DNA of 34,991 nucleotides from positions 1 to 34,991 of the forward strand of contig JANQHE010000036.1 of assembly GCA_028282785.1 (NCBI GenBank). The letters run 5' to 3'. Both the position numbers and the translations under genes were made by a program. Below the pieces are notes generated by a model. That model saw only the letters and a program-made list of their open reading frames with translations, did no database searches and had not been told where the DNA came from. This stretch comes from Bacteroidales bacterium. Lineage in GTDB: Bacteria > Bacteroidota > Bacteroidia > Bacteroidales > UBA12077. Each line of letters opens with the position of its first letter. Within the stretch, counting starts at the first letter, position 1. Shown in pieces: positions 4,965 through 31,500 of this stretch.

Positions 4965-4980
4965 AGTTACCTTTAATTCA

Positions 4981-5706
4981 ATGCTTCATAAAACAAGAGG
5001 TATAGTCCTAAATCATATAAAATACTCCGAATCAAGTCTGATCGTTACCATATACACCGAACTTTACGGTAGACAATCATATATTGTACAAGGAATCCGT
5101 GGCAAAAAGTCAAAAATTAAGGCAAATCTTTTTCAGCCTTTGTTCTTACTCGATATGGAAGTTTATCATAAACCAAAAAGGGATTTACAACGAGCAAAGG
5201 AAATCCAAAATGCATATATTTTTACCAGCCTACCTTATGACTTAAAGAAAAGCACTTTAGCCATATTTATAGCTGAAATATTATATAAGACCATCCAGGA
5301 GCATGAACCTAATACTGAATTATTTAATTATTTATTTAATTCAATTCAGTTACTCGATTTAAAGGAAAAAGGATTATCAAATTTCCACGTATACTTCCTA
5401 ATTCACCTAACAAAATATCTTGGGTTCTTCCCTAACAACAACTATTCGGATACCAAATGTTATTTTGATCTAAAAGCAGGAAGTTTTGTACGGATTAAAC
5501 CTATGCACTTTTCGGTACTTGAGCAAGAAACTAGTAAGATTCTAAGTCAAATGCTTTTATTTTCTGAACATCAGCATGAGGATTTAGTAATTAACTATAA
5601 AGAAAGAATTCAACTGTTAGAAAAAATAATAGAGTATTTTGCATTACATAATGAAGGGATTTCAGGTATTAAATCGTTAGAAGTTTTAAAAGAAGTGTTT
5701 CATTAA
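4981..5706 (+). CDS. recO: DNA repair protein RecO
   Basis: A 241-residue protein of the normal RecO length. The N-terminal OB fold (about 1-80) shows the typical KTRGIVLNHIKYSESSLIVTIYT opening and the GIRGKKSKIKANLFQPL segment; the rest is the helical domain. RecO mediates RecA loading with RecR and anneals SSB-coated single strands during recombinational gap repair. The C-terminal four-cysteine zinc site of many RecO proteins is absent: only a single cysteine, in TKCYFDL, remains in that position. The start codon is 16 bases after the porZ stop, so the two genes are probably co-transcribed. Confidence 0.93.
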   Translation: MLHKTRGIVLNHIKYSESSLIVTIYTELYGRQSYIVQGIRGKKSKIKANLFQPLFLLDMEVYHKPKRDLQRAKEIQNAYIFTSLPYDLKKSTLAIFIAEILYKTIQEHEPNTELFNYLFNSIQLLDLKEKGLSNFHVYFLIHLTKYLGFFPNNNYSDTKCYFDLKAGSFVRIKPMHFSVLEQETSKILSQMLLFSEHQHEDLVINYKERIQLLEKIIEYFALHNEGISGIKSLEVLKEVFH

Positions 5707-7071: not shown

Positions 7072-7114
7072 AAGAATTAAAGATTTCGTTGGGATTTTTT
7101 CCAGATTTATTATA

Positions 7115-7151
7115 AAAACCAAATATTGATTATATTTGGTTTTGTGTTTTT
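7115..7151 (+). terminator. Terminator after the aminotransferase-like gene
   Basis: An 11-bp perfect stem (7116-7126 with 7132-7142) with a 5-base loop; the arms are AT-rich around a central ACC/GGT. A T-rich stretch (7140-7151, interrupted by G) follows. Confidence 0.65.
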
Positions 7152-7179
7152 ATATGTCGTACCCTGAAGAATAATTCTA

Positions 7180-8697
7180 ATGCAAATTATAAATTCCATA
7201 GTTACCTGGCTTAATTTTAAACGATTATATCAAATCGATTTATTTAAGAAATTTCCTTTTGACGCACAACGAGAGGTGATTTTTGGATTAGTGGATAAAG
7301 CAAAAAAAACTAAATTTGGCGAAAAATATGATTTTAAATCTATCGATAGTATCCAGAAGTTTCAAGAGAGAATACCTGTCCATACTTACGAAGGGATCAA
7401 ACCATACATAGATCGTTTATTAAAGGGTGAACAGAACGTATTGTGGCCATCTGAAATTAAATGGTTTGCAAAATCATCAGGTACAACAAATGATAAAAGT
7501 AAATTTATTCCTGTTTCAAGAGAAACTTTGGAAGATGCTCATTTTCGTGGAGGGAAAGACATTTTAGCAATTTATACAAACAACTACCCTGAAACAAACT
7601 TGTTTAAAGGAAAGGGTTTGACTTTAGGAGGAAGTCATCAAATTAATAAAATAAACAATGAATCATTTTATGGCGATTTATCTGCAATTTTAATTGAAAA
7701 TTTACCTTTTTGGACTTATTTCATTAAAACACCAAGTCAGGAAATCGCATTGTTAAGTGAGTGGGAAGAAAAAATGGAAAAGATCACCAACGCTACTTTA
7801 AAAGAAAATGTTACGAGTTTGGCAGGCGTTCCTTCATGGATGCTAGTTTTAATTCGTTATATTCTTGAAAAAACAGGTAAGAATAATTTGTTAGAGGTAT
7901 GGCCCAACCTGGAACTTTTTACACATGGTGGAGTTAGTTTTGATCCGTATAGAGAACAATATCAAAAGTTGATTCCAACTGAAAAAATGAATTACCTTGA
8001 AACATACAACGCTTCCGAGGGGTTTTTCGCAATTCAGGACAAACCGGAAAGTAATGATATGCTTTTAATGCTGGATTATGGTATTTTCTATGAATTCATT
8101 CCAACGGTGGACATTGATAAGCCAAATCCAAAAATATTGCATATTGATGAGGTAGAATTAAACAAAAACTATGCTATGTTAATTACTACCAATTCAGGAT
8201 TATGGCGCTATTTGATCGGTGATACTGTAATTTTCACTTCATTGTATCCACATAAAATAAAAATAAGCGGTAGGACAAAGCATTTTATCAATGCTTTTGG
8301 CGAGGAGATAATTATTGATAACGCCGAAAGGGCACTGGCTGAGGCATGTAATCAAACAGGAGCTTTAATAAAAGATTATACTGCTGCACCTATTTTTATG
8401 GAGGAAGGTAAAAAGGGTGGACATCACTGGTTAATTGAATTTGACAAGTTACCTGATGACACAGAAAAATTTACTAACATTTTAGATGTAACTTTACAAA
8501 AAGTAAATTCTGACTACGAAGCAAAACGATATAAGGATATAACATTAGATAAACCTGAATTAACAGTTGCCAAAACAAACTTATTTTACAACTGGCTTAA
8601 ATCAAAAGGTAAAATCGGAGGGCAAAATAAAGTTCCTCGTCTTGCTAATAACAGGAAATATATCGATGAGTTGCTAGTTCTTAATAACAATCTGTAA
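7180..8697 (+). CDS. GH3 family acyl-acid amido synthetase-like protein
   Basis: A 505-residue member of the GH3 branch of adenylate-forming enzymes. In plants this family adenylates auxin or jasmonate and joins it to an amino acid; bacterial members are mostly uncharacterised. The three nucleotide motifs are visible: SSGTTNDKSKFIPVS (about 98-112), YNASEGFF (about 274-281) and LITTNSGLWRYLIGDT (about 333-348), followed by KISGRTKHFINAFGEE at the hinge to the mobile C-terminal domain. The substrate acid and amine cannot be deduced. It heads a compact four-gene run (gaps of 8, 11 and 3 bases to 10414), so the downstream genes are probably translated from the same message. Confidence 0.88.
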   Translation: MQIINSIVTWLNFKRLYQIDLFKKFPFDAQREVIFGLVDKAKKTKFGEKYDFKSIDSIQKFQERIPVHTYEGIKPYIDRLLKGEQNVLWPSEIKWFAKSSGTTNDKSKFIPVSRETLEDAHFRGGKDILAIYTNNYPETNLFKGKGLTLGGSHQINKINNESFYGDLSAILIENLPFWTYFIKTPSQEIALLSEWEEKMEKITNATLKENVTSLAGVPSWMLVLIRYILEKTGKNNLLEVWPNLELFTHGGVSFDPYREQYQKLIPTEKMNYLETYNASEGFFAIQDKPESNDMLLMLDYGIFYEFIPTVDIDKPNPKILHIDEVELNKNYAMLITTNSGLWRYLIGDTVIFTSLYPHKIKISGRTKHFINAFGEEIIIDNAERALAEACNQTGALIKDYTAAPIFMEEGKKGGHHWLIEFDKLPDDTEKFTNILDVTLQKVNSDYEAKRYKDITLDKPELTVAKTNLFYNWLKSKGKIGGQNKVPRLANNRKYIDELLVLNNNL

Positions 8698-8705
8698 TCT
8701 CACTT

Positions 8706-9512
8706 ATGCTCTTATCATTAATTCTGTCCATATTGATAAGTACTTTTTTTTCTGTTCAACAACAAGCAGAGATAAAATTACAACAAGAAATAAAAATTAA
8801 TGCTGAAAATTTCACCGTTGATCCATTGGGATACCTTTATCTCATAAATGGTACTGAATTAAAAAAAATCGAACTGAAAACGAATAAAGAAAGGAATTTT
8901 AGCACCATACTTTCAGGAGAAATATATTCAGTTGATGTTTCCGATCCTTTCAGAACATTACTTTTTTATAAAGATTTTAACAGGATTGAGTGGTTAGATA
9001 AAAATCTATCTTCAATTGTAAGTTCCATTTCACTGGATGATTTAGGATATTATCAGGTTGCAGCGGTTTGTCAGTCTGTTAACGGAGGATTTTGGTTATT
9101 TGATCAAAGTTTACATCAAATAGTTTATATAGATAAAAACCTGAAAACAGTTAATAAAAGTGCTCAATTATCGGAGATGATCGATCAAAATTCGGATACG
9201 TATCAGGTATATATGCTGGAAAAAAATGATTATATTTATCTGGGTATAAATAGTAAAGAGATATTATTGTTCGATAGTTATGGTACGTATATCAAGACTT
9301 TCCCATTAAATTATAAAGAGAAATTTCAGGTAAATAATGGAACCATAATTTATTACAATGGTGAGAGTTTGAATTTTTATAATACAAGTAGCTATACGGA
9401 AGAAAAAATAACATTACAGGAACAAAATACAGAACAGGTAATATTTGAGAATAAGAGAATCTTTATACAAACGAAAGAAAAAATTACTATTTATCAACCG
9501 ATTAATTTTTAA
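8706..9512 (+). CDS. Exported beta-propeller-like protein of unknown function
   Basis: A 268-residue protein starting with a hydrophobic export signal (MLLSLILSILISTFFS) 8 bases after the GH3 stop. The mature part is a series of short beta blades, for example VDPLGYLYLINGTELKKIEL, DFNRIEWLDKNLSSI, NGGFWLFDQSLHQIVYIDKN and YIYLGINSKEILLFDSYG, spaced like an NHL or six-blade propeller. No catalytic motif or lipobox is evident. Tight coupling to the GH3 gene suggests they are co-expressed, but I know of no defined function for this family. Confidence 0.7.
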   Translation: MLLSLILSILISTFFSVQQQAEIKLQQEIKINAENFTVDPLGYLYLINGTELKKIELKTNKERNFSTILSGEIYSVDVSDPFRTLLFYKDFNRIEWLDKNLSSIVSSISLDDLGYYQVAAVCQSVNGGFWLFDQSLHQIVYIDKNLKTVNKSAQLSEMIDQNSDTYQVYMLEKNDYIYLGINSKEILLFDSYGTYIKTFPLNYKEKFQVNNGTIIYYNGESLNFYNTSSYTEEKITLQEQNTEQVIFENKRIFIQTKEKITIYQPINF

Positions 9513-10484: not shown

Positions 10485-11675
10485 TTATTTCAATACGCCT
10501 AATTCTTTACCTACCTTAGTAAATGCTGCAACTGCTTTATCCAAATGTTCCTTTTCGTGTCCGGCAGAAATCTGAACTCGGATGCGTGCCTGTTCTTTTG
10601 GAACAACAGGATAATAGAATCCAATTACATAAATTCCTTCTTCAAGAAGTTTTGCTGCAAAATCCTGAGACAACTTAGCATCATATAACATTACAGCTAA
10701 AATTGCGGATTCACTAGGTTTAATGTCAAAACCGGCAGCAATCATTTTTTCTTTAAAGTATTTAGTATTATCTACTAATTTATCATGTAAATCATTCGAT
10801 TCTTCAAGCATTTTAAATACTTCAATACCAGCAGAGGCTACAGAAGGAGGAATTGAATTTGAAAATAAATACGGACGAGAACGCTGGCGTAACATATCAA
10901 TGATTTCTTTACGCCCGGTTGTGAAACCACCGATTGCACCACCAAATGCTTTACCTAAAGTACCGGTAATGATATCAATTTTTCCTCTTAAATTATATAA
11001 CTCAGAAACACCTTTTCCTGTCTTTCCAACAACTCCGGCAGAGTGGCATTCGTCTACCATTACCAAAGCATCGTATTTTTCTGCCAGCTCACAAATTTTA
11101 TCCATTGGAGCAACGTGTCCGTCCATCGAGAAAACACCATCAGTTACGATTATTCTGTAACGATGTGTTTGAGCAACTTTTAATTGATCTTCAAGATCTT
11201 CCATGTCAGCCGATTCGTAACGGAAGCGATGAGCTTTACATAATCTTACACCATCAATTATTGAAGCATGATTAAGTGTATCTGAAATAATTGCATCCTC
11301 ACTGGTTAAAAGAGGCTCGAAAACACCACCATTTGCATCAAAACAAGCGGCATATAAAATCGTATCTTCTGTTCCAAAGTAATCTGCAATTCGTCTTTCA
11401 AGTTCCTTATGCAAGTCTTGGGTTCCACAAATAAATCGAACTGATGACATACCATAACCATGAGTGTCTAATGCATCTTTTGCCGCCTCAATTAATCTTG
11501 GATGGTTTGATAACCCCAGATAATTGTTTGCACAAAAGTTTAATACATCTTGGCCGGTATTTACTTTAATATCAGCTTTTTGGGGACTTACAATGATGCG
11601 CTCTTTTTTATACAGTCCGGCATTTTCAATAGCCTCCAATTCAGCTTTTAGGTGATCTTTAATTTTTCCGTACAT
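10485..11675 (-). CDS. kbl: Glycine C-acetyltransferase (2-amino-3-ketobutyrate CoA ligase)
   Basis: A 396-residue PLP enzyme of the alpha-oxoamine synthase family, the usual Kbl length. It interconverts glycine plus acetyl-CoA with 2-amino-3-ketobutyrate, normally the second step of threonine breakdown. Visible active-site elements are NYLGLSNHP, GYGMSSVRFICGTQD (74-87), AACFDANGG, NHASIIDGVRLC (135-146), VDECHSAG with Asp208 and His211, GTLGKAFGG with the PLP lysine Lys242, and ARIRVQISAGHE near the C-terminus. No threonine dehydrogenase gene is adjacent; the gene appears monocistronic. A TAnnTTTG box lies about 65 bases upstream. A second, divergent copy is at 16707-17954. Confidence 0.96.
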   Translation of the reverse strand: MYGKIKDHLKAELEAIENAGLYKKERIIVSPQKADIKVNTGQDVLNFCANNYLGLSNHPRLIEAAKDALDTHGYGMSSVRFICGTQDLHKELERRIADYFGTEDTILYAACFDANGGVFEPLLTSEDAIISDTLNHASIIDGVRLCKAHRFRYESADMEDLEDQLKVAQTHRYRIIVTDGVFSMDGHVAPMDKICELAEKYDALVMVDECHSAGVVGKTGKGVSELYNLRGKIDIITGTLGKAFGGAIGGFTTGRKEIIDMLRQRSRPYLFSNSIPPSVASAGIEVFKMLEESNDLHDKLVDNTKYFKEKMIAAGFDIKPSESAILAVMLYDAKLSQDFAAKLLEEGIYVIGFYYPVVPKEQARIRVQISAGHEKEHLDKAVAAFTKVGKELGVLK

Positions 11676-15711: not shown

Positions 15712-16611
15712 TTAAGAAACATCTTTTCCGGTTGAGGCAGTATAAATCCTGAACCATTGTTCTAAAGTCATTTTAATATCTAAAGCATCAACTGCATTTT
15801 TAATGCGCTCAATACGCCTGGAGCCAACAATTGGTAAAATTCCAACAGGGTGATTTAATAACCAGGCATAAATTACTTTATCAACTGACTCAATATTTAG
15901 TTCTTCTACAATATCCAATAAAACTTTGTAAATTCGCTGTGATTTTTCATCCGGAGGATCTAATAGTTTTCCTCCAGACAAAGGTGACCAAGCCATTGGT
16001 TTAATACTTTCTTTTAAGAAGAAATCCATATTACCGTTTTCAAAATTATCTAAGCAATATGGTGATATTTCCACCTGGTTAGTTACTAAATCTTCATCTG
16101 TAAAAGAGTTCAACATTTCAAACTGTAAAGGACTGAAATTTGACACTCCACAGTGCAGAACTTTTCCACTTATTTTTAGATATGAAAATGCTCTTGCCAC
16201 TTCTTCCGGATCAAAAAAATGAGATGGACGATGCAATAATAATAAATCTATGTAGTCAGTTTTTAAGTTCTTCAATGATCTGTCAACGGATTCTACAATA
16301 TGTTCGTAGGAATAGTCGTAATGTTTTAACTTTCTTTCCGGGTATTTATTTGAGATCAACTTAATTCCGCATTTTGTAATGATCTGAATTTTCTTCCTTA
16401 ATTCTTTCTTTAGGTTCAAAGTATTACCAAATAATTCTTCACATGTGTAATCACCATAAATGTCGGCATGATCGAAACTAGTGATTCCAAGTTCCGTAAC
16501 CTGGTCTGTTAATTTTAGAAGCTCTTTTGAAGATAAATTCCATTCTGCTAAACGCCAGTGCCCATGAACAATACGAGAAAGTTCCAGTTCTTCGGTTAAT
16601 TTGGTTTTCAT
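15712..16611 (-). CDS. Aldo/keto reductase (YdhF-like)
   Basis: A 299-residue TIM-barrel oxidoreductase using NADPH. The catalytic tetrad is complete: Asp47 and Tyr52 in SFDHADIYGDY, Lys80 in IITKCGI and His127 in LLLLHRPS. The later FSPLQFEMLN, LVTNQVEISPYCL, AWSPLSGGKLL and PIVGSRRIERIKNA segments form the coenzyme site, and the overall sequence resembles E. coli YdhF. The carbonyl substrate cannot be inferred. It lies just downstream of the Kbl-like operon but is separated from it by a terminator (16654-16684), so it is probably expressed on its own. The 234-base stretch 15478-15711 beyond it shows nothing recognisable. Confidence 0.9.
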   Translation of the reverse strand: MKTKLTEELELSRIVHGHWRLAEWNLSSKELLKLTDQVTELGITSFDHADIYGDYTCEELFGNTLNLKKELRKKIQIITKCGIKLISNKYPERKLKHYDYSYEHIVESVDRSLKNLKTDYIDLLLLHRPSHFFDPEEVARAFSYLKISGKVLHCGVSNFSPLQFEMLNSFTDEDLVTNQVEISPYCLDNFENGNMDFFLKESIKPMAWSPLSGGKLLDPPDEKSQRIYKVLLDIVEELNIESVDKVIYAWLLNHPVGILPIVGSRRIERIKNAVDALDIKMTLEQWFRIYTASTGKDVS

Positions 16612-16706: not shown

Positions 16707-17954
16707 CTAACAGCCGTATCGGTCAATTATTTCCTGTTTTGTTTTTCCGAGAATCTCGTATTTTTTACCAACTTGAATAAAAGCGTCTAAAGCTTTTTCA
16801 AGATGATGCATTTCGTGTCCTGCAGAAATTTGTGTTCTTATTCTTGCGGCACCTTGCGGTACAACCGGGAAGAAGAATCCAATTGCATAAACACCTAAAT
16901 CAAATAAATCACGAGAAAAATCTTGTGATAGTTTTGCATTAAATAACATTACAGGCACTATTGGAGTATCTCCATCTTTTAATATAAATCCTGCTTCTGT
17001 TAATCCTTTGCGCCAAAACTTTGTGTTTTCTTCAAGTTTATCCCTGCGCTCGGTACTTTGAGATAAAATATCCAATACCCTCAATACTCCGCTTACAACA
17101 ACAGGGGCAATAGTATTTGAAAATAGGTAAGGACGAGCTTTTTGGCGGCACATTTCTACAATTTCTTTGCGTCCGGATACACAACCACCGGATGCTCCAC
17201 CAAGAGCTTTCCCAAATGTGGTTGTAATCACATCAATTTTGCCCATTACACCACATTTTTCGTGCGTGCCTCGCCCGGTTTTACCAATAAAACCGGAAGA
17301 ATGTGATTCATCAACAAATAATAAAGCGTCGTATTTTTCACATAGCGCTGCAATTTCGTCAAGTTTTGCAGTATCTCCATCCATTGAGTAAACTCCGTCA
17401 TTAATTACAATCTTTAGTCGCTTGTTTGCGTGTAATTGTAATTTTTTCTCGAGATGCTCCATATTGGAGTGTTTAAAGGTATCATGTTGCGCAGGGCACA
17501 AGCGCATTCCATCAATAATTGACGCATGCACCAGCCTATCTGAAATCATTACGTCTTCACTGGTTAAAATTGCTTCAAAAACACCTGCATTTGCATCCAT
17601 ACAAGAAGGGAATAAAATAGTATCTTCAGTACCAAGAAATTCTGATACTTTCTTTTCCAGTTCCCTGTGAATATCTTGAGTGCCACAAATGAAACGCACT
17701 GATGACATTCCATAACCTCTTGAATCTAAGCCTTCATGTGCTGCTTTTAAAACTTCAGGGTGGCTTGATAAGCCTAGGTAATTATTAGCGCAAACATTTA
17801 TTACTTTATTTAAAGATGAACCGACAGGAAATTCTACTTCAATATCGGCGGCTTGAGAAGAGTGTATGAATCTTTCCTGTTTAAATAACCCGGCATCCTG
17901 AATGGATTTAAGCTGGGATTGATATAATTCTTTTACTTTATCTGAATATGCCAT
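16707..17954 (-). CDS. Kbl-like alpha-oxoamine synthase in a carrier-protein operon
   Basis: A 415-residue PLP enzyme closely related to Kbl and to the copy at 10485-11675. Catalytic elements are intact: GYGMSSVRFICGTQD, HASIIDGMRLC (143-153), DESHSSG with Asp215 and His218, TTFGKALGG with the PLP lysine Lys249, and ARIRTQISAGHE. It differs by a short insertion (EFPVGSSLNK, about 41-50), NHASIIDG becoming VHASIIDG, and FPSCMDANAG in place of AACFDANGG. The family condenses an acyl thioester with an amino acid and loses CO2 or not. Because it is the last gene of an operon with a dedicated carrier protein, an acetyl-CoA-synthetase-like ligase and AcpS, I infer that it takes its acyl group from the carrier. 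Donor and amino acid are unproven; plain Kbl activity is the alternative. Confidence 0.88.
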   Translation of the reverse strand: MAYSDKVKELYQSQLKSIQDAGLFKQERFIHSSQAADIEVEFPVGSSLNKVINVCANNYLGLSSHPEVLKAAHEGLDSRGYGMSSVRFICGTQDIHRELEKKVSEFLGTEDTILFPSCMDANAGVFEAILTSEDVMISDRLVHASIIDGMRLCPAQHDTFKHSNMEHLEKKLQLHANKRLKIVINDGVYSMDGDTAKLDEIAALCEKYDALLFVDESHSSGFIGKTGRGTHEKCGVMGKIDVITTTFGKALGGASGGCVSGRKEIVEMCRQKARPYLFSNTIAPVVVSGVLRVLDILSQSTERRDKLEENTKFWRKGLTEAGFILKDGDTPIVPVMLFNAKLSQDFSRDLFDLGVYAIGFFFPVVPQGAARIRTQISAGHEMHHLEKALDAFIQVGKKYEILGKTKQEIIDRYGC

Positions 17955-17980
17955 AGTATTTTAGGTTTAAATGAAATGAA

Positions 17981-18000
17981 AGCCATCATAACCGATGGCT
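17981..18000 (-). other. Small hairpin between carrier protein and Kbl-like genes
   Basis: A perfect 7-bp inverted repeat (AGCCATC at 17981-17987, GATGGCT at 17994-18000) with a 6-base loop fills most of the 53-base gap. Minus-strand sequence after it is only moderately T-rich (TTTCATTTCATTT), so it may be a weak attenuator or an RNA-processing site that sets the ratio of the two products. Confidence 0.45.
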
Positions 18001-18007
18001 TAATATT

Positions 18008-18253
18008 TTATAGAAATCTTTTAACAAGTTCTTCGATACTATTTACTGTATCAAAAGCCTCAGGCGAAGCATCAGCATCAGGTATAGAAATTTTATACTT
18101 GTTTTCAAGAAACCTTTTAAGTGAAACCATTGAAAATGAGTCAACCAGTCCTCCCGAGATTAGAGGAGTGTCATACGTCACATCATCATCTTCTTCGTCA
18201 CAGTATTCTTCAATAACATATTCCAAAATAATGTCTTTCATATTTTCTTCCAT
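18008..18253 (-). CDS. Dedicated acyl carrier protein
   Basis: An 81-residue, strongly acidic four-helix carrier protein. The phosphopantetheine attachment motif is G-G-L-V-D-S-F-S, with the modified serine at Ser39 in the DSF context; the preceding EEDDD run and the following helix MVSLKRFLENKYKISIPD fit the ACP fold. It differs from the fatty-acid synthase ACP motif DSLD, as expected for a specialised carrier. Its serine would be loaded with 4'-phosphopantetheine by the AcpS gene of the same operon and with an acyl group by the adjacent ligase. The ATG at 18253 is used; a second ATG four codons later is possible. The leader contains two copies of the palindromic repeat. Confidence 0.92.
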   Translation of the reverse strand: MEENMKDIILEYVIEEYCDEEDDDVTYDTPLISGGLVDSFSMVSLKRFLENKYKISIPDADASPEAFDTVNSIEELVKRFL

Positions 18254-18260
18254 AACAGTA

Positions 18261-18300
18261 GTTTTTTTAACCTGCCAATTGGCAGGCTGGTTTGTAATTT
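18261..18300 (-). repeat. Palindromic leader repeat, short copy (unit A1)
   Basis: On the minus strand it reads AATTACAAACCAGCCTGCC then AATTGGCAGGTTAAAAAAAC, ending 7 bases before the carrier-protein ATG. It is the outer stem and flanks of the longer copies with the central GTTTATCCGCC...AGGAGGA part missing; the core CCTGCCAATTGGCAGG is a perfect palindrome. Confidence 0.8.
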
Positions 18301-18308
18301 ATTTGTTT

Positions 18309-18360
18309 TATCCTGCCTGTCCTCCTACGGCGGATAAACTGACAGGCATGTTTGTAATTT
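18309..18360 (-). repeat. Palindromic leader repeat, full copy (unit A2)
   Basis: On the minus strand it starts AAATTACAAACATGCCTGTC, runs through GTTTATCCGCC and AGGAGGACAGG, and ends GCAGGATAAAA. The outer arms pair as CCTGTC/GACAGG and the inner TCCgCC/GGaGGA can form a second hairpin. It fills the gap between the ligase stop and unit A1. Confidence 0.85.
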
Positions 18361-18380
18361 TAATTTATATAAGGAACTAA

Positions 18381-20084
18381 CTAATCGTCTTCTAAAGTAG
18401 AAATATCGCCAATTTCTTCGCCCCATTCTTCAGCATGCAATACACGTCTCATAATTTTTCCACTTCTGGTTTTTGGTAATGAATCGCGATACTCAATCTC
18501 CTGAGGCATAGCTAAAGGAGAAAGTTTTTTGCGAATAAAATTCATGATTTTTAGTTCCATGTCGTCGTCTGCAACAAATCCTGGTTTTAAAGTCACAAAT
18601 GCTTTAACAACTTCCATATTTACTTCGTCAGGTTTTGCAACAACTGCGGATTCAGCAACAGCTTCATGCTCTAATAAGGCTGATTCAACCTCAAATGGAC
18701 TTACCAAATGTCCACCGGTATTGATTACATCATCATCGCGGCCAATAAACCAATAATATCCATCGTTATCAATGTAAGCACGATCGCCGGGCAAATACCA
18801 TCCATTTTCGAATTTTTTTTGATACGTTTCTTCATTTCTCCAATAAGTACGCATCATAGCTGGCCATCCCGGTTTAAAACCGATTAGGCCGGGTTTTCCG
18901 GTTTCATTTATTGGTTCATATGTTTTTGTATCTAAAACAGTTGCAATAATTCCGGGAAATGGTTTGCCCATTGAGCCGGGTTTGATTTTCATTCCCGGAT
19001 AATTAGTTAGCATCATTGAACCTGTTTCGGTTTGCCAGTAAGTATCTAAGAAAGGTTTTCCAAATACTTTTTCTGACCAAATTACTGCTTCAGCATTTAG
19101 AGGTTCTCCAACACTTGCTAAATGGCGCAAAGATGACAGATCGAATTGTTTTACTGAATCTTCGCCTGCTTTCATCAAAGAACGAATAGCTGTAGGAGCA
19201 GAGTACCACATGGTGATTTTTCTTTTCTGAATGAATTTGTACCAGTTTTCGGCAGAAAATCCAGTATCAAGAACGCATTGAGTAATTCCGATGCTCCACG
19301 GCCCGATAATTCCATAGGAAGTTCCTGTAACCCAGCCCGGATCTGCGGTACACCAATAAATATCATCATCTTGTAGATCTAATACCCATTTAGTAGTTAA
19401 ATACTGTGATATCAAAGAATAATGCACATGCTTTACTCCTTTTGGTTGGCCGGTTGTTCCGGAGGTATAATGTAATACAGAATGTGATTCGGCTTTGGTT
19501 GGAGCAACTTCGAACTTTTCAACTTGTTCAGCTTCATCCATATTAAATGCAATTTCTCTTTCGCGAAGAGGCTTACTACCATCATAATCAACCAGGATAA
19601 TATGCTTTAAATACGGCATCTTATCTAATATTTTACGTACTTTCGAAACATGTTTGCGTTGAGTTATGATAGCTGTTGTTTCGGCATTATCTAAACGAAC
19701 ATGTAACGATTCATCGCCAAATGCAGAAAATAGGGGTTGGGCTACCGCACCTAATTTTAAAATTCCAAGAAAACCAATGTAGAGCTCAGGGATTTTATCC
19801 ATGAATAAGCATACACGATCGCCGGTTTGAATTCCCAAATCTTTTAAAAATGAGGCAATTGTGTTACTTCTTAAACGAACATCATTAAAGGTATATTGTT
19901 TTTCCTTTTCTCCCAAACCTTCCCAAATTAATGCAAGCTTATCTGCTTTTCCTAGTTGACATATCCTATCTGAACAGTACCAACCAATGTTGATATTGTC
20001 TCCATCTTTGTAGCCTAACTCCTTTTCGGCGATGGACCAATCGAAGTTTTTAAGACGTTCTTCGTAAGAACCAATGTTTGACAT
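18381..20084 (-). CDS. Acetyl-CoA-synthetase-like adenylate-forming ligase
   Basis: A 567-residue ANL enzyme of the acetyl-CoA synthetase type. Motifs: the AMP loop YTSGTTGQPKG (206-216), TADPGWVTG (246-254), YWQTETG (349-355), WYLPGDRAYIDNDGYYWFIG (429-448) and the catalytic lysine Lys543 in RSGKIMRR. Trp350 lies where acetyl-CoA synthetase has the tryptophan (Trp414 of the Salmonella enzyme) that closes the acyl pocket; medium-chain enzymes have glycine. A short acid such as acetate or propionate is therefore the likely substrate. In this operon it could load the adjacent carrier protein instead of CoA, which is inference. It lies between acpS (67-base gap, occupied by repeat A3) and the carrier gene. 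The ATG at 20084 gives the usual MSNIGSYEERLKNFDWSIAE opening. Confidence 0.9.
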   Translation of the reverse strand: MSNIGSYEERLKNFDWSIAEKELGYKDGDNINIGWYCSDRICQLGKADKLALIWEGLGEKEKQYTFNDVRLRSNTIASFLKDLGIQTGDRVCLFMDKIPELYIGFLGILKLGAVAQPLFSAFGDESLHVRLDNAETTAIITQRKHVSKVRKILDKMPYLKHIILVDYDGSKPLREREIAFNMDEAEQVEKFEVAPTKAESHSVLHYTSGTTGQPKGVKHVHYSLISQYLTTKWVLDLQDDDIYWCTADPGWVTGTSYGIIGPWSIGITQCVLDTGFSAENWYKFIQKRKITMWYSAPTAIRSLMKAGEDSVKQFDLSSLRHLASVGEPLNAEAVIWSEKVFGKPFLDTYWQTETGSMMLTNYPGMKIKPGSMGKPFPGIIATVLDTKTYEPINETGKPGLIGFKPGWPAMMRTYWRNEETYQKKFENGWYLPGDRAYIDNDGYYWFIGRDDDVINTGGHLVSPFEVESALLEHEAVAESAVVAKPDEVNMEVVKAFVTLKPGFVADDDMELKIMNFIRKKLSPLAMPQEIEYRDSLPKTRSGKIMRRVLHAEEWGEEIGDISTLEDD

Positions 20085-20152
20085 AGTAGTTTTAGTTTTT
20101 TAGCCTACCTGTCCTCCTAAGGCGGATAAACCGGCAGGCAAGTTTGTAATTT
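20085..20152 (-). repeat. Palindromic leader repeat, full copy (unit A3)
   Basis: The minus strand reads AAATTACAAACTTGCCTGCC, GGTTTATCCGCCTTAGGAGG, ACAGGTAGGCTAAAAAACTA and then AAACTACT before the ligase ATG. The repeat starts at the acpS stop codon and fills the whole intergenic gap. The AGGAGG lies 28 bases from the ATG, too far for a normal ribosome-binding site, and is paired in the inner hairpin. Confidence 0.88.
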
Positions 20153-20534
20153 ATGTTTGATCGTTATTTATAATTATAAAAGCAATTGCTAAATCTTTTG
20201 TATGGCTTAAGGAAATATGAACCGAATCTCCGTTTAGATTTTTCACGATTTCTTTGGCTTTTCCTGTTAATTTAATTTCCGGTTTACCTAATTCATCATT
20301 TAGTATTTCGATTTCATTAAATTTAATTCCGTTTCTCCAGCCTGTACCAATAGCCTTTAAAAAAGCTTCTTTTGCTGCATATCTTGCAGCAAAATGTTCT
20401 TCTTTATTTTTAAATTGATTACAATATTCGATTTCAGAAATAGTATATATACCATCAATAAATGATGGTTGTTGTTCAAGACGGCTTTTCATTCGTTGAA
20501 CCTCGAAGATATCAGTTCCAATACCTAATACCAA
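20151..20534 (-). CDS. acpS: Holo-[acyl-carrier-protein] synthase
   Basis: A 127-residue phosphopantetheinyl transferase of the AcpS type. It moves 4'-phosphopantetheine from CoA onto the serine of a carrier protein. The two hallmark motifs are present: GIGTDIFEVQR with Mg-binding Asp8 and FAARYAAKEAFLKAIGTG with Glu56, followed by LSHTKDLAIAF near the C-terminus. The start is TTG at 20534, the only start that gives the canonical MVLGIGTDI opening. It is the first gene of the operon; its natural partner is either the housekeeping ACP or the carrier encoded two genes downstream. If this is the genome's only AcpS, the operon is tied to an essential function. The leader carries repeat A4. Confidence 0.93.
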   Translation of the reverse strand: MVLGIGTDIFEVQRMKSRLEQQPSFIDGIYTISEIEYCNQFKNKEEHFAARYAAKEAFLKAIGTGWRNGIKFNEIEILNDELGKPEIKLTGKAKEIVKNLNGDSVHISLSHTKDLAIAFIIINNDQT

Positions 20535-20540
20535 TATTGT

Positions 20541-20599
20541 AGTTTTTTAGCCTGTCTTTTCTCCTTCAGTGGATAAACCGACAGGTAGATTTGTAATTC
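20541..20599 (-). repeat. Palindromic leader repeat, diverged copy (unit A4)
   Basis: The minus strand reads GGAATTACAAATCTACCTGT, CGGTTTATCCACTGAAGGAG, AAAAGACAGGCTAAAAAACT. It shares the ends and outer arms with A2 and A3 but the inner hairpin has decayed. The repeat ends just before the TTG start of acpS. Confidence 0.78.
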
Positions 20600-20866
20600 C
20601 TATCAAAATCCTTGGTTTGATAGAGTTAGTAAAATAAAATGTATTTTTTATATTAAACATGTTTTAAAACATTCCCAATTTTAAATTAACGGAGAGTACA
20701 AAATATAAGCTTTTCAGAATTCTGTTAATTAATTAACAGTTTATTTAAAATGATTTTATAAAAGCTTCATAAAGCTGGCTGAAATTTTGTTCTTTTATTT
20801 ATATTCAGTAATTCAGTACAATAAGGAATAAGATTAAAAAAAAGTGCATTTTTTTCTGAGAACTAT
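20600..20866. other. AT-rich intergenic region with an 18-bp palindrome
   Basis: No gene is visible between the acpS leader and the tRNA promoter. The region should hold the promoter of the minus-strand acpS operon, but I find no full TAnnTTTG on that strand. It contains a perfect 18-bp palindrome, CTGTTAATTAATTAACAG at 20722-20739, and directly before it the 10-bp palindrome CAGAATTCTG (20715-20724), either of which could be an operator. Confidence 0.45.
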
Positions 20867-20927: not shown

Positions 20928-21001
20928 TCCTCAGTAGCTCAGTTGGTTAGAGCACCTGACTGTTAATCAGGGAGTCGTAGGTTCAAGTCCTACCTGGGGA
21001 G
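20928..21001 (+). tRNA. tRNA-Asn (anticodon GTT)
   Basis: A complete cloverleaf of 74 bases including the discriminator G. The acceptor stem is TCCTCAG with CTGGGGA (one T-G wobble), the D-arm contains AGCTCAGTTGGTTAGAGC, the anticodon stem CTGAC...CAGG frames TGTTAAT with anticodon GTT, and the T-arm is GTAGG-TTCAAGT-CCTAC. The CCA end is not encoded (GCAAAA follows). A promoter and a terminator bracket it, so it is a single-gene unit. Confidence 0.97.
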
Positions 21002-21009
21002 CAAAAGAA

Positions 21010-23697: not shown

Positions 23698-24084
23698 TTA
23701 ATAATCTTCTATAATTTTAAATTCAAATGGAATTTTAATCATTTCAGAATATTCCATCCCGGTATCTCTCATATCATCATCTTCTTCAAGATAGTTCCAA
23801 ATAATAGTAACTTTTTTTTCACTGTTTTCAACAATTCTTTCAAGTATGTAAAATATTTCCAATAACATGGTTGCAGTTGCAGAGTTGTAGTACTGCAAGC
23901 GAAATTCAAATCTGGTTTCGTTATTCGGGTCTTTAATATATTCTTCTAGCCATATTAGAACCGGATCGAAAAAGCGGCGGACCTCTTCAGGAAATGATTT
24001 GCCAAACATTAAGAATTTGCTTAAATCTTTATCAAGGTTTATTCCGGGAGATTCGTCGGTTGCTGCAATAGTTAACGGTTCCAT
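23698..24084 (-). CDS. SiaC-like regulatory phosphoprotein, copy 2 (DUF1987)
   Basis: A 128-residue protein of the DUF1987/SiaC family. In Pseudomonas aeruginosa SiaC is a switch protein phosphorylated on Thr68 by SiaB and dephosphorylated by the PP2C phosphatase SiaA. Here Ser68 in LQYYNSATATMLLEIF occupies that position, after the family pattern FLMFGKSFPEEVRRFFDPVL (25-44) and before VTIIWNYLEEDDDM. The gene is 19 bases downstream of a related copy and of the phosphatase. Likely role: a phosphorylation-controlled partner protein. Its target (a diguanylate cyclase in Pseudomonas) is not encoded here and could differ. Confidence 0.85.
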   Translation of the reverse strand: MEPLTIAATDESPGINLDKDLSKFLMFGKSFPEEVRRFFDPVLIWLEEYIKDPNNETRFEFRLQYYNSATATMLLEIFYILERIVENSEKKVTIIWNYLEEDDDMRDTGMEYSEMIKIPFEFKIIEDY

Positions 24085-24103
24085 TATATTTTTAAGATTT
24101 GTA

Positions 24104-24493
24104 TTAAAAATCAGCTTCTTCTAAAGCGTGATATTCGAAAGGTAAGCTTACTAATTCGGCGTATTCTTCTCCGGCATCTAACATATCTTCATCAATTTCC
24201 AAATAATTCCATGAGATGATAACTTTTTTACCTGTTTTATAAATACTGTCAAGAATGTTTAATATTTCCAAAATTATTAGGGAAGATGAAGAATTGAAAT
24301 ATTCCATTTTAAATTCAAATAATGTTTCCTCTTTGGGATCTTTAGCATAATTTTCGAGCCATTCCAAAACAGGGGCATAAAATGACCTGCTTTCTTCGGG
24401 GAATGATTTTCCCTTCATTTCGAATTTACCTGAGTTTTTATCTAAGTAAATTTGGGGAGTCGAATCCGTTTTATCGATTTTTAATTCTGTCAT
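24104..24493 (-). CDS. SiaC-like regulatory phosphoprotein, copy 1 (DUF1987)
   Basis: A 129-residue paralogue of the neighbouring gene: GKFEMKGKSFPEESRSFYAP, then EYFNSSSSLIILEIL and VIISWNYLEIDEDM. The serine at position 68 (N-S-S-S-S) lies where SiaC carries its phosphothreonine. The two copies differ over much of their length but share the SFPEE core, the phospho-site and the WNYLE strand, so they arose by duplication and have diverged. The gene starts 3 bases after the phosphatase stop, which implies coupled translation with it. Confidence 0.87.
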   Translation of the reverse strand: MTELKIDKTDSTPQIYLDKNSGKFEMKGKSFPEESRSFYAPVLEWLENYAKDPKEETLFEFKMEYFNSSSSLIILEILNILDSIYKTGKKVIISWNYLEIDEDMLDAGEEYAELVSLPFEYHALEEADF

Positions 24494-24496
24494 AAG

Positions 24497-26704
24497 TTAT
24501 GCTTTTAAATAAGAGTCTAATTTAGATAAAAAAAGTTTAAGCTTAATGGGTTTTAGTATAAAATCGTCGCAACCAACCTCCACAGAACGTTCTTTTGCAT
24601 CTTGCAAACTTAATGCAGTTTGGGCAATAACTGGTATATCAGGTTTAACTTCTTTTATTCTTTTTGTTGTTTCAAATCCATCTAACTTAGGCATATTAAT
24701 ATCCATTAAAATTAAATCAATTTGGGGGTTCTTATTGAAAATTTCAATAGCTTCTTCACCATCCTTAGCTCTTATAACATTTACTCTTGTTTGTTTTAAT
24801 GCTTCAACTAAAAAAAGGTAATTCATTTCAGTATCTTCAGCTATAAGAATGGTTTTTTTGCTCCAATCATACGTATCTTTCTTTTCTAATGATTTGGCTA
24901 CTTCTAATTTAATACCAATTACGAGAATATCATCTAACTGTATATTATCTCCTTTCCAGTCTTCAAAGGTTTTGTCAAGAATTTCCTTTTGAACATTCAT
25001 AGGTTTTTTATGAATCTCAAGTAACAATTTTTGAAAGTTCTTCGACATAAATTTAAAGTTTTTACTCCCTCCAATTTGGTCATAAAATCCATCAGAAAAC
25101 ATATAAATGATATCGTTTTCTTTATAATCAAATTCGTGATTGGTGAAAGGTTTATATGCATTTCGGTGAATGCTAACAGGCATTCGATCCGCTTTAATAA
25201 CTTCTAATTTGTTATTTTTTATAATATAAAGTGGATTATGAGCTCCTGCAAACTGGATTTTTTGTTTTTCCGAATCAATGATACATAAAGCCATATCAAT
25301 TCCATCTTTAGATTCTGTATTTTCTCCGGTTTGGTGTAACGAATCGATTATATAGTTTCGAAGTTGATTTAATATTTCATTAGCCTGTAATGAATATATG
25401 TGTTTATTTTCGATAATTTTAGTAACAATTTCGTTCAAGAAAGCAGTGCCTAACATACTCATAAAAGCACCTGGTACTCCATGACCAGTGCAGTCTGCTG
25501 CTGCAATAATGATTTTACCATCTTTATTCATCATCCAGTAAAAATCACCACTTACAATATCTCTCGGTTTATATAATATAAAGTGTTCAGGGAGATTTCT
25601 TTTTATAAAATTAAGAGGAGGTAAAAGAGCATTTTGAATTCGTTTAGCATATTCAATACTATCGGTAATATCCTTTTTTTGTTGATGGGCTAAATCTCTT
25701 TGCTGTTCAATTTTCTCTTTTTGTTCCTTAATCTGAATATTTTGGGATTCCAGTAATTGATTTGCTTTCTTTTTAGCTCTGTTTTGTCTTAAAACTAATA
25801 TTGAGAATATTAGAATTAATAAAAAGATAGAAGATGCACTTAATATAACTATTCTTTTATTCCTTTTCTCTGCTTGTATGGTTATTTCCTTTAACTCAAG
25901 CTCTAATTGTTGCTTTTGTTTAATGGCCTCAGTTTCTTCTAAAGTTTTTTGAGTTTCTTCGAGCTGATTCGTAGTTTCAGATAAGGTTTGTTCAGTTTTA
26001 ATTTTTTCGTTTTGAGCTTGCTGAACTTTTTCTTTTGATTTTTCCTCAATTTCTTTAATTTCCTGAGATTTAATATGTTTATCTAAAGAAGCAAATTGCT
26101 CAAAATATTTCATGGTATTTTCAGAATCGCCCAGTAGTTCATAATTTTCGGCAAGCATACCATAACATGTTCGTACCAGCTTTAAATTATTAAATTCCTG
26201 AGCATAGACGAGAGCTTCATTTATATGCTTTATGGCCTCTTGATACTGAGAAAGATTTTTTAATGCTGTGGCCTTATTCATTAACCCTGCATAAATACCA
26301 TCTTTTTGATTTAAATCTCTTGCAATTTGAAGACCTTTATCGAAGTTAATTAATGCATTTTGATAATCCTCTTTATCTGAGAGAATTAAGCCAATATTAT
26401 AATGTAAAGATTTTATTCCGTTTTGATTATTATTAGACTTATTAAGTTCCAGAGACAGGTTAAAGTAATCAATAGCATTATCGTAAAGTGCATTTTCCCA
26501 ATATAGATATGCAATTTCATTAATAGCTTCGGCCTGAAGAATAGAATTATTTTCCTTTTGGTATTTTTCTACATTATTTTTTAATGTATTTATCTTGCTT
26601 GTTGTTTGTAAATCAAGACCTTGTCCAAATGTAAATAAATGAACAAATAATGCAGAAATGGTAAATATTATAAATATCCTTTTACACATGAAAGATTCTT
26701 CCAT
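24497..26704 (-). CDS. Membrane TPR protein with PP2C/SpoIIE phosphatase and C-terminal receiver domain
   Basis: A 735-residue modular signalling protein. Signal or anchor (7-28), TPR repeats (about 35-215, e.g. IKSLHYNIGLILSDKEDYQNALINFDKGL), coiled coil (215-282), one membrane segment (285-305), a second coiled coil (310-350), then a SpoIIE-type PP2C domain (about 355-600) with metal aspartates in SGDFYW (Asp387), AADCTGHGVPGAF (Asp404), FSDGFYD (Asp538) and DDILVIG (591-592), and finally a receiver domain (617-735) with acidic pocket Glu623/Asp624, phospho-acceptor Asp668, Thr696 and Lys718. It should dephosphorylate the SiaC-like proteins encoded next, under control of the sensor part and the receiver. 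Start: ATG 26704, two bases after the preceding stop; ATG 26689 is an alternative. Confidence 0.9.
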   Translation of the reverse strand: MEESFMCKRIFIIFTISALFVHLFTFGQGLDLQTTSKINTLKNNVEKYQKENNSILQAEAINEIAYLYWENALYDNAIDYFNLSLELNKSNNNQNGIKSLHYNIGLILSDKEDYQNALINFDKGLQIARDLNQKDGIYAGLMNKATALKNLSQYQEAIKHINEALVYAQEFNNLKLVRTCYGMLAENYELLGDSENTMKYFEQFASLDKHIKSQEIKEIEEKSKEKVQQAQNEKIKTEQTLSETTNQLEETQKTLEETEAIKQKQQLELELKEITIQAEKRNKRIVILSASSIFLLILIFSILVLRQNRAKKKANQLLESQNIQIKEQKEKIEQQRDLAHQQKKDITDSIEYAKRIQNALLPPLNFIKRNLPEHFILYKPRDIVSGDFYWMMNKDGKIIIAAADCTGHGVPGAFMSMLGTAFLNEIVTKIIENKHIYSLQANEILNQLRNYIIDSLHQTGENTESKDGIDMALCIIDSEKQKIQFAGAHNPLYIIKNNKLEVIKADRMPVSIHRNAYKPFTNHEFDYKENDIIYMFSDGFYDQIGGSKNFKFMSKNFQKLLLEIHKKPMNVQKEILDKTFEDWKGDNIQLDDILVIGIKLEVAKSLEKKDTYDWSKKTILIAEDTEMNYLFLVEALKQTRVNVIRAKDGEEAIEIFNKNPQIDLILMDINMPKLDGFETTKRIKEVKPDIPVIAQTALSLQDAKERSVEVGCDDFILKPIKLKLFLSKLDSYLKA

Positions 26705-28573: not shown

Positions 28574-31500
28574 TTACCTCATTAATGTTACTGTTCCTGA
28601 AATTCGTTTAGCACCATTTTTTAGATTAATTATATAATAATAAGCATCCATTGGTAATTTTTTACCATTATACGTTCCATCCCACTGCTGATCTTGCTCA
28701 TATCCTTTAGAGTAGAATACTATTTTGCCCCAACGATCAAATACTTCAATTTCTACATCAGGATATAATCCTTGCATATCAATAACCCAAATATCATTTA
28801 CGCCATCATCATTTGGAGTAAATGCGGAAGGTATGTCAATACAATCATCAAAGGCACTCCTTACAATAAAGGTTGAGTCTGTTTCACAGGAGCTTGAATC
28901 CATAACTACAACTTCGTAAATACCGGATCTGATCTCATACAAGTTTTCTTCATTAAATCCGTCATCCCAATATATTGTATAAGGAGTTCTACCTCCTGAA
29001 ACATTTAACTCAATCGATCCATCACGAATATCTGGACATGTAGGCCTAATCACTGCTGGTGTTAATATTAACTTATCAGGTTCGTCAATCAATATATTAG
29101 TATCCACTTGACAATCATGAATATCTGATATATTAATTTGATATGTACCCGGAGGTAATTGATCCCCTGAATTTGTTGTAAGTCCATTTGACCAGTTATA
29201 AGTATAATCCGGAGTTCCACCAAACATGCTTAACGTGATATACCCATCATCAAAGCCATAACACGTAATATCTTCTTTTGTTGCTGTTAGTGTTAACGGA
29301 TCAGGTTGAGTAATTTCTACTGTAGATACCTCAAGACAGTTATTGTTATCAACAACAGAAATATTATAATTACCCGGATCAAGGTTAGTTGCTATACTAT
29401 CTGTAAATAAAGCAGAATGGCTCCATTGGTAAGTATATGGAGTTATTCCTCCTTGTGGTGTTATTATGATTTGTCCATTAGAATAACCAAAACAAGTAAT
29501 ATTTTCTGAATAGATGTTATTTGCAATTTCATCTGGTTCTGAAATAATAATTTCATCAGTTGCAACACAACCTTTAGAGTCCATTACGTTAACCTCATAT
29601 ACTCCTGATGATAATCCGGAAATTGAGTTTGTTGTTTGTCCGCCTGGATTCCAGCTAATAGAATATCCTCCGTTTCCTCCTGAAATATCAACACTTGCAG
29701 TTCCGTCTTCATAACCAAAACACGAAGAATTTTCACCAGTAATAATAGCTTCTAATAGTTCAGGTTCAAAAATTACTGCTGTATCATAAATTTCACAATC
29801 TTTTGCATCAGTTACAGTAACAAAATATTGCCCACCGGATAAGCCAGTTTGATCTTCTGAGACAGGATCTAAATTACTACTTGACGTACCTCCCCAATTG
29901 TATGTATACGGGCTTTCAGTATTACCGCCCGTTACAATTAAATCAATACTGCCATCACTATCGTCAAAACAAGTAACATCTGTAAATATGATTTCAGAAT
30001 AATATTCGAGAGGCTCGTTAATAATTGTAAATGAGTCAGTTTCACAACCTCGCCAGTCATTAACTGTTACGGTATATGTACCTCCGGATAATCCTGTTTG
30101 ATTTTGAATGCTATCCACTAATCCACTTCCATCGAGAGTTGACCAGTAAAAGTCATAAGGATCCGTAAATGGAATACCAATATAGAAGTCTTTGTCGTTT
30201 CCACCGGAAATATATAAATTAATGGTTCCATCTGCATCACCTTCACAAGATATATTAGTTGGCAATATTGAATCAATTTTTATAGGATCAGGTTCCATAA
30301 TTTCAACTGATTCTACTGCTTTACAACCTTCAACATTAGAAGCAGTAACCGTATAAATACCAGGAGAAAGGTTAGTAATTTGAGCTGTAGTTTCAAGTGT
30401 AGACCATTCATAATTTGTAAAACCAACAGCATCTGCTTCCGCTGTACCATCATTTTCTCCATAACAACTAACATGTACAGGGAATATATTTATAGCAGTT
30501 TGAGGAGGTTCTCCTACAATCATCGATGTGTCTTGTGCACAACCTTTCCAGTCGGTTACGGTGGCAAAATATTCTCCTCCATCCAGACCTCCAACCGAAT
30601 CTGTTGTTTGGCTTATTGTCCATGAATAGTCATAATTACCATTACCTCCTGTTGGTGTTAGAATTACGTAACCATCTCCAGCACCGTTACACGAAACATT
30701 TTTAACAGTATCTATAATTGGAACAAGCCTATCAGGTTGTTCGATTAAAACGGAATCCGTTTTAATACAACCTTGATTATCAGTTACCGTAACAGTATAC
30801 CATCCAATCGATAATACTGAATCTGTAGCAGACGTTTGATGATTATATGGGTCATTCCAGTTATATGAAAAATCATTAACTCCATTCTCAGCTATTACAT
30901 AAGCTCTTCCATTTGATTCTAAATAACAAACAACGCTATCTGCAAACATATCGGTATCAGCAGTTGGATGAACTGTGATAGAATCTACAACAGATGGACC
31001 GTCAGCACAACCAGTAGCAATGGATCTTGGTGTTATAGTATAACGAACTACCTGAGGTTTAGCAGGTCCTGCCGTAGAATTATGTAATGAATCAGTGATA
31101 ATATATGAATCAATAAGGTTTGTTTGAGACAGAGTATTTCCTGATAATCCAGCATCCGCAACAGAAACAAAATCGAACGTTACCTGGCCAAGAGTCATTA
31201 CATTAGGTGTTGTTAATGTAATATTTGTTCTTTCATCGTTACAGATGGTATCTTTAAGAACTGAAGTAAATACTCGTGGTGTAGGATCAATCCATATATC
31301 TACGGTAATTTCTTCTGCTGCATCAGTACATTCATTATTATTGCTGGCATTTATGCTCCATGGTGTAATCGTATATTGAATTAATTGCTTGCTGAAACTG
31401 GTATTTATTAAATTTTGAATTATTGCCGTACCAATATTTTGTCCACTACCGGAACTATTTGATTCTCCCGTTATATTTGGGTTATCTGTTACTGTCCACG

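Follow-up and report, generated by a model that had tools for sequence, protein, structure and literature searches.

The question raised by the 34,991-nt window analysed here (contig JANQHE010000036.1 of the 5.5-Mb Bacteroidales genome assembly GCA_028282785.1) is what a small acyl carrier protein (ACP) does between the genes of an acetate-type ligase and of an enzyme of the glycine C-acetyltransferase (Kbl) type. Four open reading frames (ORFs), all on the minus strand, make up the core of the locus: acpS (20151..20534, TTG start), a holo-ACP synthase or phosphopantetheinyl transferase (PPTase; TIGR00516, 105 bits against a cut-off of 59.8); acs (18381..20084), an adenosine monophosphate (AMP)-forming acetate-type ligase of the PRK04319/NF003313 group (759 against 729 bits); acp (18008..18253), an 81-aa carrier protein with Ser39 in the motif GG[IL]VDSFSM (Pfam PP-binding PF00550, 22.6 against 20.8); and kbl2 (16707..17954), a Kbl-like alpha-oxoamine synthase with Lys249, here called KBL2 (TIGR01822, 570 against 493 bits). 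The genes follow one another in this order with intergenic gaps of 66, 127 and 53 bp. An earlier note, made from this DNA alone, had described the same four genes running in one direction, and both their place and their family assignments were confirmed. In our interpretation the unit is probably a carrier-protein glycine C-acetyltransferase, in which an acetate-loaded ACP would feed KBL2.

The conservation of the unit was assessed in 149 genomes of the same order (own genome included), which were searched with the ACP and then with KBL2. Thirteen genomes were ACP-positive (E-value of 1.2e-29 or better, the next match being 1.3e-20 and the remainder weaker than 1e-8), and all of them carried KBL2 at 81-100% identity, compared with a single KBL2-like protein among the 136 ACP-negative genomes (G047, 76%). 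The KBL2 search returned 14 genomes at 76-100% identity, followed by a drop to 60% or less. The association of the two proteins has a Fisher p of about 1e-17, a value that serves only as a guide because the species are related. In the 12 positive genomes other than our own, KBL2 adjoins the ACP and is 81-87% identical to the protein of the window, while the ligase lies on the fetched stretch in 11 (L031 being the exception), AcpS in nine and an ordinary kbl upstream in seven; the closest KBL2 among the fetched loci (96%) comes from a Salinivirgaceae metagenome-assembled genome (MAG; L061). An ordinary Kbl is encoded in 12 of the 13 ACP-positive genomes, the exception being G140. Furthermore, Ser39 of the carrier, singled out in the earlier note, is present in all 13 aligned ACPs, in which 41 of the 81 positions are invariant. 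In a class-level set of 198 genomes, five had a ligase above the NF003313 cut-off: our own, two with the gene beside ACP and KBL2 (G305 and G336) and two without these neighbours (G287 and G318).

When a named-genome collection of 84,980 species was scanned with an alignment of the ACP, 494 relatives were obtained, and all locus counts below refer to the best 80 of these 494. Their records are filed under twelve phylum names and nearly all are metagenome-assembled; the Bacteroidota, in which the earlier note had framed its survey, do contain the unit, but that range is too narrow. Of the 80 loci, 77 have KBL2 after the ACP and 74 have the ligase within 2 kb upstream of it; an AcpS homologue was found in 46, and 30 contain a second Kbl. 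KBL2 is missing after the ACP in three loci: L119 and L123, where 512 and 68 bp of contig remain, and L130. These counts, together with those for the order, confirm that the four genes are not chance neighbours and support the earlier proposal of a dedicated, conserved carrier-protein unit with an acetate-type ligase. The fetched stretches also contained some irregular arrangements. In L035 (L077; 2063-6935) the ligase is 5 kb from acp, with two secreted-type proteins (PKD, SBBP, Por_Secre_tail) in between; in L033 (10302-11955) the ligase ORF of one MAG is split over two frames, by a frameshift or an assembly error; and in L043 (G124; 4231-4623) a more distant ACP (43% identical, E 1.3e-20) has an MBOAT acyltransferase as its neighbour, and the 14-kb stretch holds no KBL2.

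Phylogenetic analysis showed that the carrier-linked enzyme is a form of its own. In a tree of 145 of 156 Kbl rows, identical ones removed, the 78 carrier-linked KBL2 sequences formed one group within Kbl, the separate clade that the earlier note had suggested looking for, with a support of 100 in the Shimodaira-Hasegawa-like approximate likelihood ratio test (SH-aLRT; quick search, no bootstrap). The G047 copy, hereafter the orphan, was sister to this clade (SH-aLRT 83), and eight tandem second copies came next (100). In the tree, KBL2 sequences labelled with different phyla are interspersed, which suggests transfer, though the labels of MAGs can be wrong. Residues were counted in the 78 KBL2, the eight tandem copies and 51 ordinary Kbls; the orphan (L136), the outgroups L046 and L047 and five distant second Kbls (L065, L071, L076, L096 and L098) were compared separately. 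Lys249, already indicated as the lysine of the Kbl-like enzyme, is present in all 78 KBL2 rows, as are Met119, Arg140, Val142, Asp158, Thr159, His167 and Cys269, and Pro116 is present in 77. Ordinary Kbls have Phe119 and Asn142 in 51 of 51 cases, and they differ from KBL2 as well in Lys154 (50/51 vs 7/78) and Arg157 (49/51 vs 3/78). By analogy, Lys154 and Arg157 may be contacts of coenzyme A (CoA), Arg157 presumably aligning with a CoA-contacting lysine of 5-aminolevulinate synthase, a point on which PMC8892079 is silent. Phe119, Asn142, Lys154 and a basic residue at position 157 are retained by the eight tandem copies and by the orphan, and among the rows compared the combined changes are confined to carrier-linked KBL2. 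The orphan (contig 450 of G047, 4367-5656; 74-76% identical to KBL2) acts as a natural control, since its 10-kb contig holds no ACP, ligase or AcpS and the genome has only a weak ACP match (E 9e-4).

The pocket for the amino acid and the product has been preserved. The residues given for the Cupriavidus enzyme CnKBL in PMC9814548 (N52, V81, H138, H215, L274, F275 and R370) and the lysine that binds pyridoxal phosphate (PLP) are identical in 78 of 78 KBL2 sequences (N57, V86, H143, H218, K249, L277, F278 and R373). We read these patterns as those of an enzyme whose amino acid and product would be unchanged and whose carrier side would have been redesigned. KBL2 also scores below the cut-offs of the serine palmitoyltransferase (SPT) families NF047599 (282 vs 500 bits), NF047600 (308 vs 640) and NF047603 (228 vs 670). 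The nearest solved folds to its AlphaFold model are Kbls (7bxp, 7v58, 7bxq, 3tqx and 1fc4); the model has a mean pLDDT (predicted local distance difference test) of 78.9, with low confidence at 82-92, 220-227, 252-254, 277-282 and 362-364, pocket segments among them, and holds no information on the choice of carrier.

In the proposed mechanism, AcpS would add 4'-phosphopantetheine to Ser39 of the ACP, and the AMP-forming ligase would load the ACP instead of CoA with an activated small acid, which is most likely acetate. KBL2, with PLP on Lys249, would then catalyse the reaction acetyl-ACP + glycine <=> 2-amino-3-ketobutyrate (AKB) + holo-ACP, while threonine 3-dehydrogenase, encoded on a different contig of our genome and beside the unit in some relatives, would interconvert AKB and L-threonine. 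Free acetate would thereby be linked to the glycine/threonine pair, with acetyl-CoA bypassed. That the ligase loads the ACP and that KBL2 uses acetyl-ACP is inferred from sequence and genomic context, as are the identity of the acid and the net direction of the pathway.

The genes found around the unit are consistent with such a pathway. A threonine dehydrogenase of the short-chain dehydrogenase/reductase (SDR) type (tdh) was found in 14 of the 80 wider loci and a SatP acetate transporter in 10, or 13/79 and 9/79 without the self-hits of the queries, which came from the L122 and L067 genomes, respectively; the binomial values for this linkage are a guide only, because the loci share ancestry. 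In L066, L101, L102 and L128, tdh precedes acpS or acs on the same strand by 29-74 bp, and in L101 and L128 the order tdh-acpS-acs-acp-kbl2 is contiguous, with no other Kbl of at least 42% identity in either genome; in L128 the row continues after kbl2 with an unassigned 253-aa protein and a sodium/solute symporter of the VC_2705 family. Acetate uptake transporters of family NF038013, all over the cut-off, stand beside the unit in L067, L068 and L118, and an ActP/MctC-like protein below the cut-off in L090. At E<=1e-50, an SDR threonine dehydrogenase was detected in all 13 KBL2-positive genomes of the order. A further 17 KBL2-positive genomes, mostly drafts, were searched for second Kbls at >=42% identity to KBL2, and the dehydrogenase was present in five of the six in which KBL2 is the sole Kbl and in three of the 11 with another Kbl. 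Additional neighbour families (SiaC-like, SiaA-like, kinase-like and amidase) occur in 5-9 loci, in related genomes only, and several large neighbour clusters consist of opposite-strand ORFs. The possibility that the unit bypasses threonine auxotrophy by replacing ThrC was also considered and rejected as a general reason: a weak ThrC (best match below 100 bits, TIGR00260) was counted in 3 of 13 KBL2-positive genomes of the order, in 2 of 17 other KBL2-positive genomes and in 7 of 15 KBL2-negative genomes of the order (hand-chosen, the orphan genome G047 not counted).

Several observations weigh against the interpretation as a carrier-protein glycine C-acetyltransferase. In the chromosome-level genome G165 (L130; CP070707.1), which does encode an SDR threonine dehydrogenase, acs and acp are present (7015-9258) and KBL2 is absent from the genome, and G047 has its KBL2-like protein without a close ACP. 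The SDR threonine dehydrogenase is also present in 13 of 19 KBL2-negative genomes and was not found at the above threshold in nine of the 17 further KBL2-positive ones. The Lys154/Arg157 pair is missing as well in the adjacent TIGR01825-type Kbl/BioF-like enzyme of Anaerolineales, and L046, a distant synthase of our own genome, also has Val at position 142; for this reason neither change is diagnostic alone, and both were rejected as stand-alone proof of carrier use. In addition, KBL2 and the ligase both exceed the cut-offs of CoA-using families, and part of the ligase evidence is ambiguous. Of 73 linked ligases, 68 retain the pocket tryptophan, Trp350 in the earlier note and presumably the small-acid determinant of the ligase, and the other five (L068, L087, L090, L107 and L127) have Phe (rows longer than 760 aa, namely L083 and L105, linked, and L177, unlinked, were excluded). 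R191, R194, S523, R526 and R584 of Salmonella Acs are positions that we take to be CoA contacts. Arg191 is retained in none of the 73 linked ligases (Lys in one), a position at which 9g79 also has Glu; R194 is deleted here and in short CoA-type relatives alike; S523 and R526 are changed in 73 of 73, R526 being also Met in two short relatives; and R584 is retained in 72 of 73. The changes beyond Arg191 are thus partly common to short CoA-type relatives, and the loss of CoA-contact arginines was therefore rejected as proof of ACP use. Among ligases of the class, the 27 whose loci lack the ACP show 34-46% identity.

The same set of enzymes could also operate in the catabolic direction, in which threonine would be converted through AKB to glycine and acetyl-ACP, the ligase, reversed with AMP and pyrophosphate, would release acetate and adenosine triphosphate, and the transporters would export acetate. 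This is a serious alternative, although we consider it somewhat short of an even chance. The tdh genes within 29-74 bp of the unit in the four loci named above speak for it, since tdh-kbl operons are otherwise read as catabolic in PMC9814548, and PMC4992975 reports a reverse AMP-forming acetyl-CoA synthetase in Syntrophus aciditrophicus. Nevertheless, an ordinary CoA-type Kbl able to do the same is usually present, as in 12 of the 13 order genomes, and the three SatP-type neighbours tested belong to the acetate uptake transporter family, though both directions may run. Because the ligase is of the AMP-forming type and uptake-type transporters lie nearby in some relatives, we lean slightly towards acetate assimilation as the net direction of the carrier-protein glycine C-acetyltransferase. 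Another arrangement would pair KBL2 with a CoA-type Kbl, so that AKB made by KBL2 from acetyl-ACP and glycine would be cleaved by the CoA-type enzyme to acetyl-CoA and glycine, and glycine would catalyse acetyl transfer between the carrier and CoA pools (or the two form a heterodimer). The second Kbls in 30 of the 80 loci, mostly within a few kb, span Bacteroidota kbl, the Delongbacteria-type tandem, the Anaerolineales TIGR01825-type and Aminicenantes/Acidobacteria kbl, and this origin from several separate lineages suggests repeated recruitment. The tandem copy (about 61% identical) comes right after KBL2 in L082, L085, L089, L099, L108, L112, L113 and L118, mostly labelled Delongbacteria. 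However, no second Kbl of at least 42% identity was found in six of the 17 KBL2-positive genomes (drafts for the most part) and the net reaction looks wasteful, and we regard such pairing as unlikely. Near the tandem Kbl, a large serine/threonine-kinase-like gene was recognised by eye in seven of the eight loci.

Two further readings are still less probable, and to the same degree. The earlier note had envisaged a new small aminoketone, which would be aminoacetone or a propionyl analogue, as the end product. AKB does decarboxylate to aminoacetone, according to PMC9814548, and an aldo/keto reductase stands beside KBL2 in the window and in L080. Against this, no tailoring gene recurring across lineages was found within 7.5 kb in the 80 loci, the reductase occurs in only one of them, and the genes that do recur are threonine and acetate genes. 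Considering tdh, ordinary kbl and acetate transporters as recurrent neighbours, together with the unchanged glycine/AKB pocket, the aminoketone is not supported as the product, and it is likelier that the enzyme makes or consumes AKB within threonine-glycine metabolism. The remaining reading is that the annotation is right as it stands, with an acetyl-CoA synthetase and a CoA-dependent Kbl beside an ACP that serves something else; the CoA-family scores of both enzymes and the acs-acp pair without KBL2 in L130 would fit it. On the other hand, the ACP gene lies between those of the ligase and KBL2 in most loci, the protein is well conserved across the order (68-78%, vs 77-85% for the ligase), and, among the rows compared, the combined residue changes are seen only in carrier-linked KBL2. 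Taken together, the carrier-protein glycine C-acetyltransferase remains our preferred interpretation, and acetate, glycine and AKB are most likely the compounds of the KBL2 reaction.

The ACP itself matches 11 NCBIfam ACP families, the ornithine-lipid family NF052616 among them, and reaches the cut-off of none (best 54 vs 130 bits). No variation occurs in its helix II (DSFSMVSLKRFLE) among the 13 sequences of the order, and 74 of the 80 wider ACPs match this helix exactly; it holds the pair Lys46-Arg47, which is present in 78 of 80. The recognition helix of AcpP and AcpR is acidic, as described in PMC9386255, unlike the helix here. Among the 80 ACPs, Val47 occurs only in L119 (9001-9255) and L130 (9010-9258), both of which belong to the three loci without KBL2 after the ACP; this hints that Arg47 may contact KBL2, on the strength of two cases and with the L119 genome not searched for KBL2. 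The ligases of these two loci are 75% identical and are not mutual closest relatives, that of L119 being 81% identical to the ligase of L125, where KBL2 is present.

Alpha-oxoamine synthases that accept carrier-bound substrates are known from other pathways. BioF can take pimeloyl-ACP as an ACP thioester, with alanine as the acceptor, in biotin synthesis, and the title of structure 8dle names a BioF-acyl carrier crosslink. SxtA4 of saxitoxin synthesis and the PigH-type synthases reportedly use carrier-bound acyl donors, a short one in the case of SxtA4, in secondary metabolism and in multidomain or differently clustered form. The proposed carrier logic of the unit is that of the AcpR/AasR/SPT system of Rhodobacteria, whose co-occurring genes encode a dedicated ACP, a dedicated ligase that loads it and an alpha-oxoamine synthase that draws on it; as presented in PMC9386255, that system employs SPT and long acyl chains for sphingolipids, whereas the unit described here has a Kbl and an acetate-type ligase, often includes acpS and has threonine and acetate genes as neighbours. 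SulA, the cysteate acyl-ACP transferase of Alistipes finegoldii (Bacteroidota), likewise prefers acyl-ACP over acyl-CoA, but it is of the SPT type and was assayed with 16:0-ACP, and the part of PMC9304779 available names no dedicated ligase/ACP operon for it. With ordinary Kbl, KBL2 shares the fold, the PLP lysine, the full glycine/AKB pocket and, in part of the neighbourhoods, tdh; it differs in the linked carrier and ligase and in the replacement of Phe119, Asn142 and, mostly, Lys154 and Arg157.

No description of a carrier-linked Kbl turned up in an open-access library searched by full text, subscription papers and preprints being outside this coverage, and we conclude that this form of Kbl is real, is conserved over a wide range of lineages and, within the reach of that search, has not been described. 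If the proposed function is correct, an enzyme that textbooks present as working with CoA in primary metabolism also exists in a carrier-protein version, and a dedicated protein can hold acetyl groups in a setting other than the synthesis of fatty acids or natural products. Current annotation would hide such a unit: the scores of the ligase and KBL2 clear the 'acetate--CoA ligase' and 'glycine C-acetyltransferase' cut-offs, and the ACP reaches that of no named ACP family. More speculatively, and with considerable doubt, many uncultured lineages might keep a carrier-bound acetate pool apart from acetyl-CoA, through which a dedicated acetyl-ACP synthetase and an ACP-specific glycine C-acetyltransferase would channel free acetate to glycine/threonine metabolism and, where a CoA-type Kbl is paired with the unit, glycine would shuttle acetyl groups between the pools. 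This readily assayed three-protein system has natural controls in the tandem sister copies, the orphan and an ordinary kbl that lies 5 kb from it.

This ordinary kbl (10485..11675, minus strand) is 54% identical to KBL2 and outscores it on TIGR01822 (709 vs 570 bits); it is a possible metabolic partner of the unit and, like the aldo/keto reductase and the hairpin repeat described below, does not appear in the earlier note. The genome also encodes two more distant alpha-oxoamine synthases and has three PPTase-family matches, acpS being one of them. The aldo/keto reductase (15712..16611, minus strand, PF00248) lies downstream of kbl2 on the same strand; its L080 counterpart is 72% identical, and it is probably lineage-specific and outside the core unit. 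A 67-nt hairpin repeat is present in three copies, upstream of acp (18294..18360; RNA fold z -1.4), just upstream of acs (20086..20152; 84%, z -3.3) and just upstream of acpS (20533..20599; 70%, z -2.7). Its exact core pattern occurs in the first two copies only in the whole genome, and outside it, among the fetched loci, there was just an 18-27-nt trace in L060.

Upstream of acpS, a tRNA-Asn is encoded on the plus strand at 20928-21002. A SiaC-like phosphoprotein and a SiaA-like phosphatase (below the cut-off) with a receiver domain are found at 23698-26704, and nine loci of close relatives likewise have SiaC-like genes in the vicinity of the unit. Beyond these genes lies a large secreted protein with SprB and CHU_C domains (28574-33550). 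Elsewhere in the genome, numerous large ORFs of 1000-2900 aa on contigs 29, 35, 51, 52 and 70 match NF003313 weakly, which suggests the presence of clusters of the non-ribosomal peptide synthetase type.

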